From a marine gamma proteobacterium HTCC2080 (GTDB lineage: Bacteria > Pseudomonadota > Gammaproteobacteria > Pseudomonadales > Halieaceae): DNA of 64,000 nt. The DNA is taken from assembly GCA_000169115.1 (NCBI GenBank), contig AAVV01000010.1:62001-126000 (forward strand), in the 5' to 3' direction. Position 1 is the stretch's first letter, and each line of letters opens with the position of its first letter. Position numbers and translations under genes: made by a program. Under the pieces are notes generated by a model. It was given only the letters and a program-made list of their open reading frames with translations. It made no database searches and was not told where the DNA came from. Of this stretch, positions 16,466 to 23,277 are shown piece after piece.

Positions 16466-17035
16466 ATGACGGGTTGGGACGAGCCTCTTGCAGTTACTTT
16501 GGCCCTAGCCTACGTTGTTTTTGCCATCAAGGAAAAACGTACAGCTTGGATACTGGCCGCCGCAAGCGCAGCCTTATATCTTCGAATATTTTTCATGGTG
16601 GGCCTTTTTATGGAGGCTAGTCTGCAGCTGTTTTACATAGTCATGGCCGTCGTTGGGTGGATCTCATGGGGACGCGATGGCAGTACTTCCCAGCTTCCCA
16701 TACGACGCTGGCCAGCTAGCCGACACATTTTACTCTTGGCGATGGTGCTCGTCTGTGGAACCAGTATGGGGCTGCTCATGAGCCAATTTACTGATGCCAG
16801 CTTGCCCATCCCCGACAGTATTACGACACTCGCAGCATTGCTGGCAACCTGGATGGTTACCCGAAAAGTTCTAGAAAATTGGCTCTGGTGGATTGGCATT
16901 GATTTGGTATCAGTTGTACTTTTTTTAAATCGTGGTTTGGATCTGACGGCCTGGTTGTTTGCCGGGTATGTCATATTAGCCATTGCTGGGTGGCTGAGCT
17001 GGAGACGGCAGTATCAGGACCAAATACAGTGTTAG
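16466..17035 (+). CDS. pnuT: PnuC-family permease, probable thiamine transporter PnuT
   Basis: The 189-residue protein is a polytopic inner-membrane permease with about seven hydrophobic segments. The sequence ENWLWWIGIDLVSVVLFLNRGL is the conserved PnuC-type motif (N-W-x-x-W-x-x-x-D) that lines the vitamin-binding site. PnuC proteins carry nicotinamide riboside, PnuX riboflavin and PnuT thiamine by facilitated diffusion with metabolic trapping. Riboswitch control and the adjacent kinase favour PnuT. Its ATG starts immediately after the stop of the thiamine-binding protein. Confidence 0.85.
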   Translation: MTGWDEPLAVTLALAYVVFAIKEKRTAWILAAASAALYLRIFFMVGLFMEASLQLFYIVMAVVGWISWGRDGSTSQLPIRRWPASRHILLLAMVLVCGTSMGLLMSQFTDASLPIPDSITTLAALLATWMVTRKVLENWLWWIGIDLVSVVLFLNRGLDLTAWLFAGYVILAIAGWLSWRRQYQDQIQC

Positions 17036-17880
17036 AGAGCTCATTAGATAGCCTTCAAAACCATGCACTAGAGCAATTCAGCGCGTGGGCTACAGAACCG
17101 CAGCTGACGACAAGACCTCAGATTACTCAGACTTTGAATCAGGGCTCCAGCCATACAGCGATGCTAGTAGTCGCTGACGACGAGGCAAGTACTCGCTCTT
17201 ACATTTTACGCTACTGCAACCGGCCATCGACGCCACTTGGCCTTTCGTTTGGGCAGGAAATTGCGTGCATGAAACTAGCGAACGAGCGGGGCCTAGCGCC
17301 AAAAATTCTATGGCTGGACATAGACTGGCAGTCGATGGTGATAGAGTTTCTTGACGAGTCAGGCCCGGTTTCTTACGAGGAACTTGTGGCACTTGTCAGG
17401 TCAATCCATAGCTTGCCTCCTGAGCTGCCACCCTTAAACCTACAAGAGCAATTTGAGCATTATTGGCAGGTTGCTATCGAGCGAGGGCACAGCACCTCAG
17501 CATTGATCAACCCTGCAGAGCCCGCGCTACTATCGGCTATTAAGGCGCTCGAGTCCGAGTCGCCGGTTACCTGCCACAACGACTTAACCCCACCCAATAT
17601 TCGGCGTAGAAATCAAGACCTGGTGGCTATTGACTGGGAATATGCCGCCACAGGAAGCCCGCATTTTGACATGGCCACGCTATGCTGTGGGTGGCCTGGC
17701 ATAGACGCTGGCACCTTTGCTTTGGAAGCTCTAGGCAGCCGATTTTCTGCACAGTTACTGCATATTGCGATCCATCTCTACGCAACCCTTAATTGGAACT
17801 GGCACCAGGCGGCAGGCGAATCACCTACTTGTCAGCAGTCACCAAAAACACTCCTCCAACGCCTAGAGGCGTGCCTGTGA
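17029..17880 (+). CDS. APH/choline-kinase-fold phosphotransferase, probable thiamine kinase
   Basis: This is a small-molecule kinase of the aminoglycoside phosphotransferase fold. It shows the catalytic HNDLTPPN (Brenner motif HxDxxxxN) and the metal-binding IDWEYA that replaces DFG. Family members include ThiK (thiamine kinase), choline kinase and others. The riboswitch and PnuT context favours thiamine phosphorylation, which would trap imported thiamine. ThiL would then be needed to make TPP. I prefer the GTG at 17029, with AGGA nine bases upstream and a 7-bp overlap with pnuT. A GTG at 16990 would add 13 residues. It overlaps the next gene as GTGA. Confidence 0.75.
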   Translation: MLESSLDSLQNHALEQFSAWATEPQLTTRPQITQTLNQGSSHTAMLVVADDEASTRSYILRYCNRPSTPLGLSFGQEIACMKLANERGLAPKILWLDIDWQSMVIEFLDESGPVSYEELVALVRSIHSLPPELPPLNLQEQFEHYWQVAIERGHSTSALINPAEPALLSAIKALESESPVTCHNDLTPPNIRRRNQDLVAIDWEYAATGSPHFDMATLCCGWPGIDAGTFALEALGSRFSAQLLHIAIHLYATLNWNWHQAAGESPTCQQSPKTLLQRLEACL

Positions 17881-18782
17881 AAACCCGGTGTCACATTGTA
17901 GGCCCCGGGGCCATGGGGGGGCTATTTGCTTTTAGGCTAAAAGCTGCAGGATTTGACGTTTCTTTGATTGGCCGCTGCAGGGGGATCCGGCAACAAGAAC
18001 TCACACTACTGGCCGAGGCAGGCGGACAGACCGCTGTTTTCACCATTGAAGGCCCAGACGCTAAAGGGCCCATTCACCTGTTGTGGATAACCACTAAATC
18101 CTATTCGGCTCTAGAGGCGGCAACAACGCTTAGTCACCGATTTACGCCGGAAACTGTCATTGTCACTTTAGGAAATGGCATGGGATATCACGAGCGGCTG
18201 TCAGAGCTTGTTTCAGGAAAACTCATTGGGGGATCAACCACCGCCGGTTGCAGTTCGCCCAGCGAGAACATCCGCAAACTGGCCGGTGAGGGCCAAACAC
18301 GACTAGGCTGGTGGGATGGAACAAAGGCGCCCCCTGAGTGGCTTGCCGAACTCAGAAAAGCTCCATGGTTCGGTGACTGGGAGCTCAATATTGAAAAATC
18401 CCTGCTCGAAAAATTAGCGATAAACAGCATTATTAATCCGATGACTGCATTAATGAACATCACCAATGGCGAGCTCGTCGACGACCCCTATAAAACCACC
18501 TTGCATTGCGCCATCAATGAAGTGGCCAGCATCCTCCATTGGTCAGGGCACAATGAGATTGCCGAAAACCTCCCTCAAAGGGTCTTCAATGTTATTGGTG
18601 ATACCGCTTCTAACTCATCCTCAATGCGTATCGACCGGCAGCGCCATACCCAAACGGAGCATGAAGAAATATTGGGCCATCTACTCGAAAGTTTTGGTGA
18701 AACCACTACACTAGAAAAACCTGCAACACCGCTATTGTCTGAGTGGCTCAATGCGCTGCGACAGCCCTACCCAAATCAATAA
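17877..18782 (+). CDS. panE: 2-dehydropantoate 2-reductase (ketopantoate reductase)
   Basis: PanE/ApbA reduces ketopantoate to pantoate with NADPH in the pantothenate/CoA pathway. The protein begins with a Rossmann motif, IVGPGAMGG, directly after a GTG start at 17877 that overlaps the kinase stop by 4 bp. This gives 301 residues, the normal length. LEKLAINSIINPMTALMNITNGEL contains the conserved K-x-x-x-N catalytic region. ApbA was first found through thiamine-related phenotypes, which fits its place as the last gene of a TPP-controlled operon. Its 3' end overlaps the convergent kinase gene by 35 bp. Confidence 0.88.
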   Translation: MKTRCHIVGPGAMGGLFAFRLKAAGFDVSLIGRCRGIRQQELTLLAEAGGQTAVFTIEGPDAKGPIHLLWITTKSYSALEAATTLSHRFTPETVIVTLGNGMGYHERLSELVSGKLIGGSTTAGCSSPSENIRKLAGEGQTRLGWWDGTKAPPEWLAELRKAPWFGDWELNIEKSLLEKLAINSIINPMTALMNITNGELVDDPYKTTLHCAINEVASILHWSGHNEIAENLPQRVFNVIGDTASNSSSMRIDRQRHTQTEHEEILGHLLESFGETTTLEKPATPLLSEWLNALRQPYPNQ

Positions 18783-20130
18783 TGACAGACTCCCAAACCT
18801 GAGGTTGTGGCGACGCAGTGAAAGTCTGTTGATGAGCATGATACCGACCATGAGTTCGATGATCTAACGACAGCACACAGGTGTAATGGTCGCAATCGAG
18901 TCCTGCGATAAAAGTGTGTCGCTCCAATTTAGAAATGCTTTTTTGGTTGAGAGCGCGCTCCAATCGCTCAAAAAGCCAGTCGTGGCTGAAACCCAAAGGC
19001 AGCGCCGTATTAGCGGCAACGCGCACAGAACCTAATGTCAAGTAAGGCGCTGGGGATGTGCTCAAAAACACACCAAAACTACAAAGCGCCACCAGGCATA
19101 CCGACGCTAGTGTCTTGGTAAAACCATGACCCCTACTTGTGGACCGGGCAAACAAGGGCGTCATTTTTTTTGCAATGTGCTGTAGATCGAGACGAGCTGA
19201 TTGATCACTTAGGGCCTTACTTACACTCAGCTGCTCAGCACTCAACCGAGCCTTGATTGGGCATTCCCTTCCCACTACACGGGCGGCCAGTGAAGTGCGA
19301 TTCGCCGAAGGCAATAAGCGGATCTGCTGTCGATAACTGTTAGATAAACTGCTTAAAAGCCCTGTCCTAATTTCGTCACGACTCGTCAGTATTGCTGCAG
19401 AGTCCCAAAGTAAGTTTGCGCACCCTGTGCAGCCTTCAGGCTTCTCTGCCCTACTCACCACCCTCTGACCACGTTGATCACGAGTAGTTACAGGTAGATT
19501 TGCATCCAGCAGCCAATAAATCAGACAACCCAAGGCATATTGATCATCTGCAAACTCTGCAATAGCCCCGCTGTCTCGCTGGAATCCAGGGGCACCTGCG
19601 GTCGGTCGTGGTGCGCCCCTAAGCACACTGCTACTGAAATCAATCAACCGAATATGACCCTGTGCGTTTACCAAAATATTGCCCGGCGCCACATCTCCAT
19701 GCACCAGACCTGCCCTCTCCAGAGCCACAAAAGTTTTGAGTAAATCCATTACGACAAAAAGTATCTGACTATCTCCCATCGTAATTTTTTGCTCCGCTTT
19801 CAGGCTTTGCAGGGACACACCCTCGACAAATTCGAGCAACAGCCAAACCGCGCCCTCAAAATTTTGCACTTGGTAAATCTGCGGCACTACCGATGTCATC
19901 GCAGCCACTTTCGCCTGTGCTGCGAAGGTTGCCTCCAGCCTACACAGAGCCTTCTCAAACATTGATCGCCCTGTTTGAAATCGCTTACTCACCAGCATTC
20001 GATTAAGCGTGGGATCCAGAGCCAACCACGCGAGGCCCTGTCCACCACCACCCAGAAAACCGCGATTTTCCAAGGGCGGAGGTAGCCTCATGCTCTCAAC
20101 GCTATACCTATCGGGGCTTGTTCGTAACAT
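18748..20130 (-). CDS. Ser/Thr protein kinase with C-terminal membrane anchor and extracytoplasmic tail
   Basis: The 460-residue protein has a Hanks-type kinase domain: glycine loop GGGGQG at 27-32, Lys49 in VSKRF, the catalytic loop HGDVAPGNILV (Asp146, Asn151), and IDFSSS with Asp164 in place of DFG. A membrane helix at about 339-358 is followed by a roughly 100-residue periplasmic tail of unknown type. The core residues are present, so it is probably active. It lies 1 bp after the FHA/sigma-54 activator gene, which suggests that the kinase and FHA protein form one pathway, with FHA reading phosphothreonine. The target and stimulus are unknown. Its 3' end overlaps panE. Confidence 0.82.
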   Translation of the reverse strand: MLRTSPDRYSVESMRLPPPLENRGFLGGGGQGLAWLALDPTLNRMLVSKRFQTGRSMFEKALCRLEATFAAQAKVAAMTSVVPQIYQVQNFEGAVWLLLEFVEGVSLQSLKAEQKITMGDSQILFVVMDLLKTFVALERAGLVHGDVAPGNILVNAQGHIRLIDFSSSVLRGAPRPTAGAPGFQRDSGAIAEFADDQYALGCLIYWLLDANLPVTTRDQRGQRVVSRAEKPEGCTGCANLLWDSAAILTSRDEIRTGLLSSLSNSYRQQIRLLPSANRTSLAARVVGRECPIKARLSAEQLSVSKALSDQSARLDLQHIAKKMTPLFARSTSRGHGFTKTLASVCLVALCSFGVFLSTSPAPYLTLGSVRVAANTALPLGFSHDWLFERLERALNQKSISKLERHTFIAGLDCDHYTCVLSLDHRTHGRYHAHQQTFTASPQPQVWESVIIDLGRAVAAH

Positions 20131-20131
20131 A

Positions 20132-21661
20132 TTAGGTCACCCCCAAGCGGCGAAGTCGAGGCCGCAGCGCATGATGAGAAATTTTCAACTCAAGGGCGGC
20201 CGCCTTGATCGATTTAACGCGCTTCATGACCGCTAAAATATCGGTGTCAGCCAGATCATCTACCCGCACAAAAGTCGGGTGCGCCTCCAATCGACGGTAG
20301 AGAGCCTGCCGAGACACCCCTAGGACGGCAGCGGTTGCTGCAATCTCATAGTGCTGCGCCTGATACACCTGCTCCAAATGTTGATCCGAGAGCTCTTCCG
20401 GAGACCCACTTGTTTCACGCTCCTGTAGCCCCTTAATTAAAGGCAACATTGCGCTCTTATCCTGGGCAACCAACATAACTGCGTGCCGCAGCTCTCGGCT
20501 GTTTCCTGGCCATCGATGGCTCAGCGCATCGAAAAAAAATCGGGCCCAATGTGCGGCAACCTCAGGTGTTTCCATAGCATGACGGGGGTTTAGTAATTCA
20601 GAAACGTCGACATCTTTACCCAACATCATCAAAGCTTGAGGGACAATATCCTCCGGCCGTTCTCGTAACGGAGGTATTTCTAGGGTAAAGCCGGCAACAC
20701 GATGATGAAGTGCCGCTCGAAAACCATCCTGCTCAGATGTTGATTGGTCTGTCGCGGCGACGATACGAACATTCACTGTTTGCGATACTCCACCAAGGAT
20801 TTGCACCTCACCTTGCTCAAGAGCACGCAGCAATTGAACCTGAACCGCAGTGGGTGCATCTGCAATTTCGTCTAGAAACAAAGTACCTTTGTGGGCGCGC
20901 TGAAAGGCACCTAAGCGATCAATTGCTCCGGTGTAGGCGCCCCGGACACTTCCAAACAATTCGGCGGCGGCAAGATCTTGCGGGACTGCTCCTAAATTAA
21001 TAACCACCAAATGTTGTGAAGAACGGGCGCTTAAATCATGAACTGCCTGAGCGACCCTTTCTTTGCCAACACCCGATTCACCTTGAATTAAAATGGGTAA
21101 ATTCGTTGGCGCAACCAGCGCGATCTGGTGCCATAAGCGCGCCATTTCAACCGAAGCTCCAGGCAGAATTGACTTCAATAAATGCTGAGGGCCAGCCTCA
21201 TCATTGTTACCACAAGCAATCAAGCGCAGTACTAAAACCACACCATGGGACACCCTAAGTGGAACCCCTTTTATAAGAGCATCGTGATCTGCAACGAAGC
21301 CCTTATGCCCGGCGGCACCAATGCGCACGTCAGCGTGACTTACAGCCTCTATACGTAAACTAAAGTGACCATCCGGGAACCCCGATCGCTTGGGCGTCAA
21401 CACACAGGCCAAGCGGCTCACATAGTTATCTTCTAAAGTTCGCCGATCGCTAAATTCGGGGAAGTAGCGTCCTATCGACAGTTCACCCGGTATCGTTTCA
21501 GGGCTTTCAGTTTCCCAAGGACATAAGTTGGCCCAATGTCCGATACGCTGCAAATCCGGATGAAAGACTATCGTGAGACGGAGTGTAGGACGGAAGCGCC
21601 CTTGATCGCAGCCTCCCGTGCGCAGTGCAGGTCTCGTTACCAGTTCCTGAGGCACAGCCAT
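20132..21661 (-). CDS. FHA-domain sigma-54-dependent transcriptional activator
   Basis: The 509-residue enhancer-binding protein has an FHA-like N-terminal domain at about 60-145 (SIGR, LEDNYVSRLACVL, LIKGVPLRVSHG). The AAA+ domain has Walker A GESGVGKE (194-201), the sigma-54 contact loop GAYTGA (241-246) and Walker B TLFLDE (260-265). It ends in two helix-turn-helix-like motifs, about 437-459 and 483-507, where one Fis-type motif is usual. The start is the ATG at 21661, with GGAGG at 5-base spacing. Instead of a receiver domain it has a phosphopeptide reader, so the adjacent kinase is the likely input. The regulated promoter is not evident here. Confidence 0.88.
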   Translation of the reverse strand: MAVPQELVTRPALRTGGCDQGRFRPTLRLTIVFHPDLQRIGHWANLCPWETESPETIPGELSIGRYFPEFSDRRTLEDNYVSRLACVLTPKRSGFPDGHFSLRIEAVSHADVRIGAAGHKGFVADHDALIKGVPLRVSHGVVLVLRLIACGNNDEAGPQHLLKSILPGASVEMARLWHQIALVAPTNLPILIQGESGVGKERVAQAVHDLSARSSQHLVVINLGAVPQDLAAAELFGSVRGAYTGAIDRLGAFQRAHKGTLFLDEIADAPTAVQVQLLRALEQGEVQILGGVSQTVNVRIVAATDQSTSEQDGFRAALHHRVAGFTLEIPPLRERPEDIVPQALMMLGKDVDVSELLNPRHAMETPEVAAHWARFFFDALSHRWPGNSRELRHAVMLVAQDKSAMLPLIKGLQERETSGSPEELSDQHLEQVYQAQHYEIAATAAVLGVSRQALYRRLEAHPTFVRVDDLADTDILAVMKRVKSIKAAALELKISHHALRPRLRRLGVT

Positions 21662-21754
21662 GACCACCTCCACACCAGCCAAATGACGACTGGTTATGCA
21701 ATGTCATAGCGACTTTAGCGCTATTTTAAAATTGCCTACTCGTCATAAAGCTGA

Positions 21755-22561
21755 TCAGGAGACAATCACCAAAACAGAAGCCACCACAACCCAAACCGCA
21801 AGCGCTCGTTTCAATAACTCCCGAACGCGTTCTATCTGTTGATCTAGCGCTGTTTCTGTAACCGGGGAGGCCAGCTCAAACCCCTGCATCAACAGCTCAT
21901 TTGTCTGAATATCGGCATCTAATACTTTGTTCATGAATAGCGGCCGAATACTTTCAAAGTTGCCAATAGCACCGAAAGTTAACAGTAAAATCCGTGCAGG
22001 AAGCCAGTCTAGAAAGTACAACAAACGACTTATCGGACCGTTTCGATCGCCGGCCCCCAAAACCACCAATCGGTATCCTACGGCGAAGAAAGGACCAAAA
22101 AATAAAAAATAAAAAACAGGGGAAAACCAACGCTGAAAGCCTTCATACAAAAGAAATCGAGCACCATCGCGCTCTGCTGAAATAGCGTCATCTACCTGTA
22201 ACATGCGATAGCCCGCAGCGTCTAAAGCTAGCAACGCCCCTTCGACGTCACCCGCTGCGACCCGGGATTTAAACCGGTTAACAAGCTCTGGCCACTGCAA
22301 TCTTCCAAAACTGAAAAATAATGCCGGGGTGCCCAACAGCAATACGGCCGCCGCACCAAACATTTCCTCAAAAATGGCGTATACCAAAGTAAAGCCGGCA
22401 CACGGCACCACCACTAGGAGTACAAACCCCAACCAAAAGTCTGGCTCTAGAGCCGCGACCCGCCCTTGGAGGGCCTCATACCATCGATCGTTATGCAGCG
22501 GCCCACCGGATCCAATCGCGAGATAGAGTCCCGTGGCGACAAGAAATGCCAGATATGTCAT
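21755..22561 (-). CDS. ampE: AmpE-like inner-membrane protein
   Basis: AmpE is an integral membrane protein next to AmpD that is linked to beta-lactamase induction and cell wall sensing; its biochemical role is unclear. The 268-residue protein has hydrophobic segments at about residues 2-18, 43-65, 66-83, 145-165 and near the C-terminus, and FYFLFFGPFFAVGYRL in the family core. The gene order ampD-ampE on one strand supports the call. A 79-bp gap lies between the two genes. No ampR or beta-lactamase gene is present in the window. Confidence 0.85.
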   Translation of the reverse strand: MTYLAFLVATGLYLAIGSGGPLHNDRWYEALQGRVAALEPDFWLGFVLLVVVPCAGFTLVYAIFEEMFGAAAVLLLGTPALFFSFGRLQWPELVNRFKSRVAAGDVEGALLALDAAGYRMLQVDDAISAERDGARFLLYEGFQRWFSPVFYFLFFGPFFAVGYRLVVLGAGDRNGPISRLLYFLDWLPARILLLTFGAIGNFESIRPLFMNKVLDADIQTNELLMQGFELASPVTETALDQQIERVRELLKRALAVWVVVASVLVIVS

Positions 22562-22640
22562 TGCTTGAGGCTCTCCTTATAAACGGTTTAGCAGTAACAC
22601 TGCTGATTTAGATATTTTTGCCTAAATTGCTCCAGCTTAA

Positions 22641-23216
22641 TTAGAGCTTCACATTATCATTTGATACATCCGCCAACCGGTGCCAATCGAAGCACGCGCC
22701 CGGATCTGTTTTCCTACCCGGAGCAATATCACTGTGGCCTACAATATCACTTTGCTCGAGAGACGGATGGTAGCGCCGAAGGGCTTTGATCAATTGCCGC
22801 AGATGCACATATTGAACGTCAGTGTAGGCTTGGTCATCTGTGCCCTCAAGCTCTATACCTATGGAAAAATCGTTGCAGTTGGTTTGACCACACCAGTGAG
22901 ACTCGCCGGCGTGCCAGGCTCTATCTCCGCTGGCAACAAACTGTACAATTTCTCCCAATCTGGTGACCAAAAAATGGGCTGACACGCGCAGATGCGCAAT
23001 ACTCTCAAAATAAGGGTGCAGTGATGGATTTAGTGTATTCGTAAAAAGTGCTTCAATGTGTCCTCCCCCAAACTTTCCCGGGGGCAAAGATATGTTGTGC
23101 AGCACAATGAGCTGGAGAGGGGCTTCTTCGGGGCGGCAATTATAGTTGGGCGAAGCCACTTTTCGCGCTCCGGCAAGCCAGCCTTTAGAGATTGTCCAAT
23201 AGTCAGGATCTGTCAT
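22641..23216 (-). CDS. ampD: 1,6-anhydro-N-acetylmuramyl-L-alanine amidase AmpD
   Basis: AmpD is a cytoplasmic zinc amidase that removes the stem peptide from anhydro-muropeptides during cell wall recycling. The zinc ligands are visible: His in IVLHNISLPPGKFGGGH, then VGHSDIAPGRKTDPGACFDW with the later His and Asp. At 191 residues it matches the family. A GTG three bases upstream is an alternative start, and I use the ATG at 23216. It is divergent from nadC with about 60 bp between them, a common arrangement in gammaproteobacteria. Confidence 0.95.
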   Translation of the reverse strand: MTDPDYWTISKGWLAGARKVASPNYNCRPEEAPLQLIVLHNISLPPGKFGGGHIEALFTNTLNPSLHPYFESIAHLRVSAHFLVTRLGEIVQFVASGDRAWHAGESHWCGQTNCNDFSIGIELEGTDDQAYTDVQYVHLRQLIKALRRYHPSLEQSDIVGHSDIAPGRKTDPGACFDWHRLADVSNDNVKL

Positions 23217-23277
23217 CACGCTCGTATCTTATCTCATGCGGGCAGATCACCCAAAAGACCAAGCAGTAGGAGTCATG

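Follow-up and report, generated by a model that had tools for sequence, protein, structure and literature searches.

A two-gene unit of Halieaceae pairing a membrane Ser/Thr kinase with an FHA-type sigma-54 activator suggests control through a tail threonine

The 64,000-nucleotide stretch of the marine gammaproteobacterium HTCC2080 analysed here (contig AAVV01000010.1, positions 62,001 to 126,000; the window) carries a sigma-54 activator with an N-terminal FHA domain and, directly behind it, a membrane Ser/Thr kinase. The two genes form a unit on the reverse strand, with the activator frame at 20132-21682 followed by the kinase at 18748-20130 and 1 base pair (bp) between them. The activator starts with a disordered tail that holds an invariant threonine ahead of the FHA domain. 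This layout suggests, as yet short of proof, that phosphorylation of the tail turns genes on. The reading that we favour, at about even odds, is a built-in phosphothreonine (pThr) switch of the activator set by the neighbouring kinase. Sequence and the structure model show that the genes are paired, how the domains are ordered, that the tail threonine and an arginine and a serine in the FHA domain are invariant, that the helix-turn-helix (HTH) is duplicated and that rpoN is present in all 75 activator-bearing genomes of the family.

Conserved features of the activator and its kinase

Residues are numbered either from the ATG at 21661, which alignment with the relatives L009 and L010 supports better as the start than the TTG at 21682, or as in P0001, the product of the frame from TTG, where each number is higher by 7. 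The end at 21661 in the original prediction corresponds to this ATG. The conservation counts cover 75 activators of the family, the window's included, one of which (L155) is without the tail, plus 12 extended rows, from which the AmpD fusion L118 and the truncated L127 are excluded. Tail position 9 is threonine in all 74 family members with sequence there and serine in none. Its codons are ACC in 31 cases, ACG in 23, ACA in 10 and ACT in 9 (n=73, the window's own excluded). With all four threonine codons in use and serine never found, the constraint acts on the amino acid. The presence of threonine without serine also agrees with the preference of FHA domains for pThr, as given in PMC3146460.

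The tail around this residue is otherwise loosely conserved. In 600 sampled pairs, identity averages 25% in the tail (P0001 residues 8-31) and 40% in the FHA domain. The second-best column is a proline at +2, giving TxP, in 65 of the 74 sequences. Position -2 is acidic in 58/74, with leucine in the window, and position +4 is L, V, I, F or M in 72/74. The disordered linker before the HTHs served as a control, and its best column reaches 40/71. This pattern fits what a conserved FHA ligand in the tail should look like.

The FHA-like sensor domain of the original prediction, which had been made from the letters of the window, held up in profile comparison. Residues 25-149 are modelled with high confidence as a beta-rich domain. 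The N-terminal profile aligned by hhalign to 15 FHA domains gives a score of 39.4 with a probability of 86.8, against 12.9 for the best of 20 column-shuffled copies. The reference set holds 15 of 16 domain matches, with L137 left out as partial and containing a stop. Other parts of both proteins score at most 10.7 against the same set. The N-terminal part scores 18.2 against the HTHs and 11.5 against the kinase tail; its score of 128.7 against the AAA+ part is no control, since the slices overlap. The GR and VSR motifs line up with the corresponding FHA motifs, so that the arginine of GR and the serine of SR fall on the phosphate-binding positions. These residues, R72 and S89 in P0001, are each present in 75/75 family activators and in 12/12 extended rows. 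A profile search of the PDB with the N-terminal part lists three chains of TB39.8, a protein with an FHA domain, at E values of 0.14-0.63, below a chance-looking match at 0.0025. The fold searches returned match lists dominated by AAA+ and kinase domains, and they hardly probed the FHA part or the kinase C-terminal domain. Judged by profile and conserved residues, the N-terminal domain of the activator is a real if degenerate FHA domain.

The output half of the activator is also as predicted, with a complete AAA+ core that includes GAYTGA and two HTHs at the C terminus. Sigma54_activat (PF00158) matches P0001 at E=5.6e-47 and is found in all of the 39 sequences aligned out of 42, the window's included. 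In the structure search the best match to the AAA+ core is LuxO (5ep0; Z 24.4, root-mean-square deviation 2.3, 238 residues). Two parts of the activator pass the Pfam cut-offs, the AAA+ core and a single HTH, the latter as HTH_8, which is matched in P0001 and in 38/39 aligned activators. Structure prediction of the C terminus had been set beforehand as a test of the second HTH, which does fold as a tri-helical HTH. The modelled helices span residues 426-435, 440-447 and 451-460 in HTH 1 and 472-481, 485-492 and 496-505 in HTH 2. The predicted local distance difference test (pLDDT) values of the HTH blocks are 82-90, and that of block 421-430 is 72. When aligned with each other by hhalign, the two give a probability of 97.5 and a score of 46.6, with 12.7 for the best of 30 shuffles. 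By this comparison they are homologous repeats of each other. Both stretches are covered in 74/75 activators, the exception being a fragment at a contig end. The double HTH had been called nonstandard; within this activator family it is the standard arrangement.

The Hanks-type kinase predicted 1 bp away, with DFS, a membrane helix and a C-terminal tail, is borne out by a Pkinase match at E=4.1e-13 and by the modelled helix at residues 338-357. The kinase domain, the hydrophobic helix and the C-terminal domain are modelled with fair to good confidence, and the best bacterial match listed in the structure search is PknB (5u94; Z 22.2, root-mean-square deviation 3.3, 243 residues). Motifs were counted in 71 kinases of at least 300 amino acids (aa), comprising 18 from the window's genus and 53 others. 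The beta-3 lysine K49, the catalytic aspartate D146, N151 and the DFG aspartate D164 are each present in 71/71. Residues 301-336, ahead of the membrane helix, are predicted to be disordered.

A domain search of the kinase tail had been suggested by the original prediction. The model shows an alpha+beta domain, for which there is no Pfam family match and nothing convincing among PDB sequences (best E 0.4). Two cysteines and one tryptophan are invariant in 29/29 aligned tails. The C-x(3-5)-C pair is found in 65/71 kinases, and the six without it are short or cut frames. A Pfam scan of 38 kinases (E up to 0.05) gave matches to 17 families, none of them a PASTA family. The kinase alignment used 38 of 41 sequences, the window's included. 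Our guess is that the domain is a disulfide-stabilised periplasmic sensor.

The pair is conserved as a unit across the family. The search covered 140 genomes from 28 genera, and the window's own genome is 3.58 Mb and 99% complete. The activator is found in 75/140 genomes (E<=1e-60). A kinase lies directly 3' of it on the same strand in 73/75 among the matches listed (72 by script, G047 by eye), and in the other two, G084 and G051, the contig ends there. The two genes are also adjacent in 11/11 additional genomes of the family whose activators have diverged further, all chosen because one member of the pair already matched; in two of these the activator N terminus is lost at a contig end. Co-conservation in related genomes, on which the predicted partnership depended, is thus found. 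The rpoN gene is detected in the window's genome (E=3.6e-66), in 132/140 family genomes and in 75/75 of those with the activator.

Among 17 loci matched by the N-terminal profile, the named relatives are Luminiphilus, Halioglobus, Mangrovimicrobium and further Halieaceae. Across the class, the profile matched 1/369 genomes, the window's own (E<=1e-6). Across the order, 26/390 genomes matched (E<=1e-3), including nine outside the family, seven from family f210 and two from family f221. In the one f221 locus read, the activator and kinase genes overlap by a few bases. In the two f210 loci read (L182 in G569, L183 in G748) the activator adjoins genes that by eye resemble hcp and vgrG of the type VI secretion system (T6SS), and the G748 locus continues with a kinase frame of 909 aa.

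Table 1. Positions in the window of the kinase-activator pair, its parts and its upstream neighbours
Feature	Position	Strand	Basis or remarks
FHA-type sigma-54 enhancer-binding protein	20132..21661	(-)	509 aa from ATG; open frame from TTG 21682
Disordered N-terminal tail, residues 1-21	21599..21661	(-)	pLDDT 36-40
Invariant tail threonine, T9 from ATG = T16 in P0001	21635..21637	(-)	Thr in 74/74
FHA domain, residues 25-149	21215..21589	(-)	Model, profile-profile match, conservation; invariant R65, S82 (P0001 R72, S89)
AAA+ sigma-54 interaction domain	20681..21160	(-)	PF00158; GAYTGA at about 20924-20941
HTH 1, Fis type (HTH_8), residues 426-460	20282..20386	(-)	Pfam, model, hhalign
HTH 2, repeat of HTH 1, residues 472-505	20147..20248	(-)	Model, hhalign
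Membrane Ser/Thr kinase	18748..20130	(-)	460 aa
Kinase domain, residues 20-285	19276..20073	(-)	K49, HGD D146, N151, DFS D164
Likely transmembrane helix, residues 338-357	19060..19119	(-)	Helix in model; hydrophobicity judged by eye
C-terminal alpha+beta domain, residues 361-459, presumed periplasmic	18754..19050	(-)	C413, C418, W446 conserved
AmpE-like (21755-22561) and AmpD (22641-23219)	21755..23219	(-)	Upstream of activator, conserved neighbours

A putative phosphothreonine switch and its alternatives

A mechanism can be proposed in which the periplasmic domain of the kinase would sense a condition of the cell envelope, and its cytoplasmic domain would then phosphorylate the invariant threonine of the disordered tail. 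The FHA domain of the activator itself would then bind this pThr, whether in cis or on an adjacent subunit, and so rearrange or assemble the AAA+ ring, which would open sigma-54 promoters. The tandem Fis-type HTH would set the ring on bipartite or extended enhancer sites. Phosphorylation, its site, capture in cis or in trans and a switch towards activation instead of inhibition are inferences, as are the signal and the targets. The original prediction had proposed pThr input as well, with the kinase phosphorylating itself or a partner. The input fits the conservation of the FHA arginine and serine, and the candidate ligand is now narrowed to the activator's own tail threonine. The complete two-gene pathway from pThr to promoter, in which an envelope-sensing kinase would write a single tail pThr, the FHA domain of the same protein would read it in place of a receiver aspartate, the system may report the state of the cell wall (ampD and ampE lie beside it) and the tandem HTH would read a longer enhancer, is a serious possibility, if on balance a somewhat doubtful one.

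Several observations weigh against a pThr switch of this kind. The histidine of the FHA SxxH motif is replaced at P0001 position 92 (Ala in 71/75, Pro in 3, Ser in 1). The asparagine position of the NG motif is lost, with no NG at the aligned place in the window activator. Pfam does not detect the domain: P0001 has no FHA match up to E=1, and PF00498 is absent from the 25 of 33 families listed for the 39 aligned activators, where a match in a single member could be hidden. According to PMC6733907, the FHA domain of DgcB was also bound to its unphosphorylated tail in a crystal. The tail motif drifts in the extended rows, where the aligned threonine is present in 10/12 and the other two have a threonine a few residues upstream. 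In family f210 a kinase is detected next door in 1/7, the available downstream sequence being mostly only about 340 bases. In G138 (L226), one of the 11 further family genomes, the kinase ortholog sits beside a sigma-54 activator with an N terminus that does not match the FHA profile, a possible swap of the sensor domain. When one mismatch to the -24/-12 pattern is allowed, the window has 9 sites with 10.7 expected, and thus no sigma-54 promoter above chance. Finally, judging from the motifs alone, kinase activity in the window's genus is not assured, with the alpha-C glutamate missing in 18/18 and the DFG glycine in 14/18.

One alternative, which follows the original prediction, is that the FHA domain docks on the autophosphorylated kinase, or on a third protein that the kinase has phosphorylated, and so keeps the activator at the membrane or lets it go. 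The invariant FHA arginine and serine, the tight gene pairing and the membrane-anchored kinase of the model all agree with such docking, and the disordered residues 301-336 ahead of the membrane helix could carry the sites. However, docking leaves the invariant threonine of the activator's own tail unexplained, and no threonine is found among the invariant or nearly invariant columns of kinase alignments A2 and A6. We regard docking as fairly unlikely. The tail threonine could instead be a constitutive residue with a role in structure or in hexamer contacts, with an FHA domain that mediates protein interaction independently of phosphate and a kinase that acts elsewhere on the activator (e.g., on the AAA+ domain or the linker). 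A degenerate pocket from which the His and Asn positions are gone agrees with this, as does the unphosphorylated DgcB tail on its FHA domain (PMC6733907). A structural role would be harder to reconcile with a tail that is predicted to be disordered and is variable except for the threonine and its TxP neighbourhood, and without bound phosphate there is no obvious reason for the invariance of R72 and S89. A phosphate-independent arrangement appears unlikely.

The window's genus departs from the rest of the family in its kinases. Outside the genus the alpha-C glutamate, the DFG glycine and the PE of APE are each kept in 53/53; within it they are found in 0/18, 4/18 and 11/18, respectively. In the window kinase the alpha-C glutamate is Ala, the DFG glycine is Ser and there is no APE. 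By these motifs the protein is a noncanonical Hanks-type member. The DFS singled out in the original prediction is real in the window and is a trait of the genus, not of the system.

Some activators of the genus are reduced as well. In four genomes, G069 (L053), G071 (L058), G091 (L057) and G098 (L052), a large in-frame deletion in the activator gene joins the tail and the beginning of the FHA domain to the last helix of HTH 2. The tail threonine and the kinase are both kept in all four. Two further loci, L098 and L099, likewise show a large in-frame deletion in the activator with the kinase kept. The HGD motif and the Gly loop of the kinase are altered in L057 (G091), L058 (G071) and L098. 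The truncations fit either an output that is decaying in this lineage or a tail-FHA fragment that has been retained. Loss of rpoN was rejected as a simple cause: G091 and G098 have no rpoN match, but G069 and G071 have one. That the genus as a whole is losing or changing the function of the system, with the kinase a weakened enzyme or a pseudokinase scaffold, would account for the departures in the three motifs, for the four activators reduced to tail, part of the FHA domain and last HTH helix, and for the kinases of G071 and G091 being also changed at HGD and the Gly loop, but it is quite improbable given that K49, D146, N151 and D164 are kept in 18/18 genus kinases with a full activator and that the window has an intact activator whose AAA+ core is complete.

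Gene neighbourhood and candidate targets

Upstream of the activator, the AmpE-like and AmpD genes are followed by a divergent nadC. AmpD adjoins the pair in 18/20 syntenic loci and in 5/6 further family loci, the exception being the truncated case G098; AmpE was found in 14/20. The ampD/ampE neighbourhood is only a hint of function, since outside the family the activator lies elsewhere. In genome G011 (L118/L188), AmpD and the FHA-type sigma-54 activator form one continuous open frame of 764 aa with no AmpE between. The two proteins may be naturally fused here, and such a fusion would connect the system with peptidoglycan recycling.

Downstream of the kinase and on the opposite strand lie panE, a thiamine-kinase-like gene, pnuC and a TonB receptor gene. 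The stretch at 16466-18782, with the pnuC, thiamine-kinase-like and panE-like genes behind the TonB receptor, recurs in this order beside the pair in many of the 20 loci and resembles a locus for the uptake of thiamine or a vitamin. The kinase gene shares 35 bp at its 3' end with the panE frame.

Exact matches to the -24/-12 pattern number 0 in the window and 4, scattered, in the 20 syntenic loci. Across the genome, one-mismatch matches number 39 compared with 27 in a reversed control, and no target can be assigned from them. With no sigma-54 promoter above chance near the locus, the targets of the activator probably lie away from it.

Relation to known systems

FHA-type sigma-54 enhancer-binding proteins were reportedly described in Myxococcus xanthus by Jelsbak, Givskov and Kaiser in 2005 (PNAS 102:3010). 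Such proteins are said to have been proposed as readers of Ser/Thr kinase signals. A pThr route into sigma-54 control, which the original prediction suggested, was accordingly not a new idea. The proteins of M. xanthus share the FHA sensor on a sigma-54 activator; in the system described here, kinase and activator stay together as a fixed pair of genes across a family of marine gammaproteobacteria. To our knowledge, the way in which FHA-type sigma-54 activators are switched has not been settled.

Switches built on a tail threonine exist with other outputs. In GarA and OdhI of the Actinobacteria, a Ser/Thr kinase phosphorylates a tail threonine, to which the FHA domain of the same protein then binds. 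These proteins regulate metabolic enzymes and are not known to have a DNA-binding or AAA+ output. In DgcB of Bdellovibrio, a disordered N-terminal tail with a conserved threonine, T14, likewise precedes the FHA domain and is recognised by it when phosphorylated; GGDEF follows, and the arrangement is proposed to switch the C-terminal output (PMC6733907). The paper also names GarA and OdhI as self-interacting FHA domains. The output of DgcB is cyclic di-GMP synthesis and its kinase was not identified there, whereas here the output would be sigma-54 transcription and a kinase gene is adjacent. The PpkA/Fha/PppA proteins of the T6SS also pair a Ser/Thr kinase with FHA reading of pThr, but they control secretion post-translationally and their FHA protein is without a sigma-54 core (see PMC10482370 for the pathway).

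Members of the NtrC family (NtrX, LuxO and FleQ/FlrC by structure) share the AAA+ sigma-54 core and the Fis-type HTH; here an FHA input replaces the receiver or other sensor, and the HTH is duplicated. The kinase differs from PASTA kinases such as PknB and Stk1 in having no extracellular PASTA repeats in the matched Pfam families. Nothing on this pair or on tail-threonine FHA-type sigma-54 activators was found in the literature searched, from which subscription papers were mostly absent. FHA-type sigma-54 activators (Myxococcus) and tail-threonine FHA switches with other outputs are thus known already. What appears new, as judged from that literature, is the combination of a fixed kinase partner, an invariant tail threonine and a tandem HTH.

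In this minimal unit there is a single obvious candidate for the site (T9), and the candidates for the reader (R65/S82) and for the kinase are likewise one each. Orthologs whose kinase is canonical are found in other genera. If the tail threonine is indeed written by the kinase and read by the FHA domain, the system would be a clean pThr analogue of NtrC-type control. It would also connect a defined output in transcription with the eukaryote-like kinases that Gram-negative bacteria possess.

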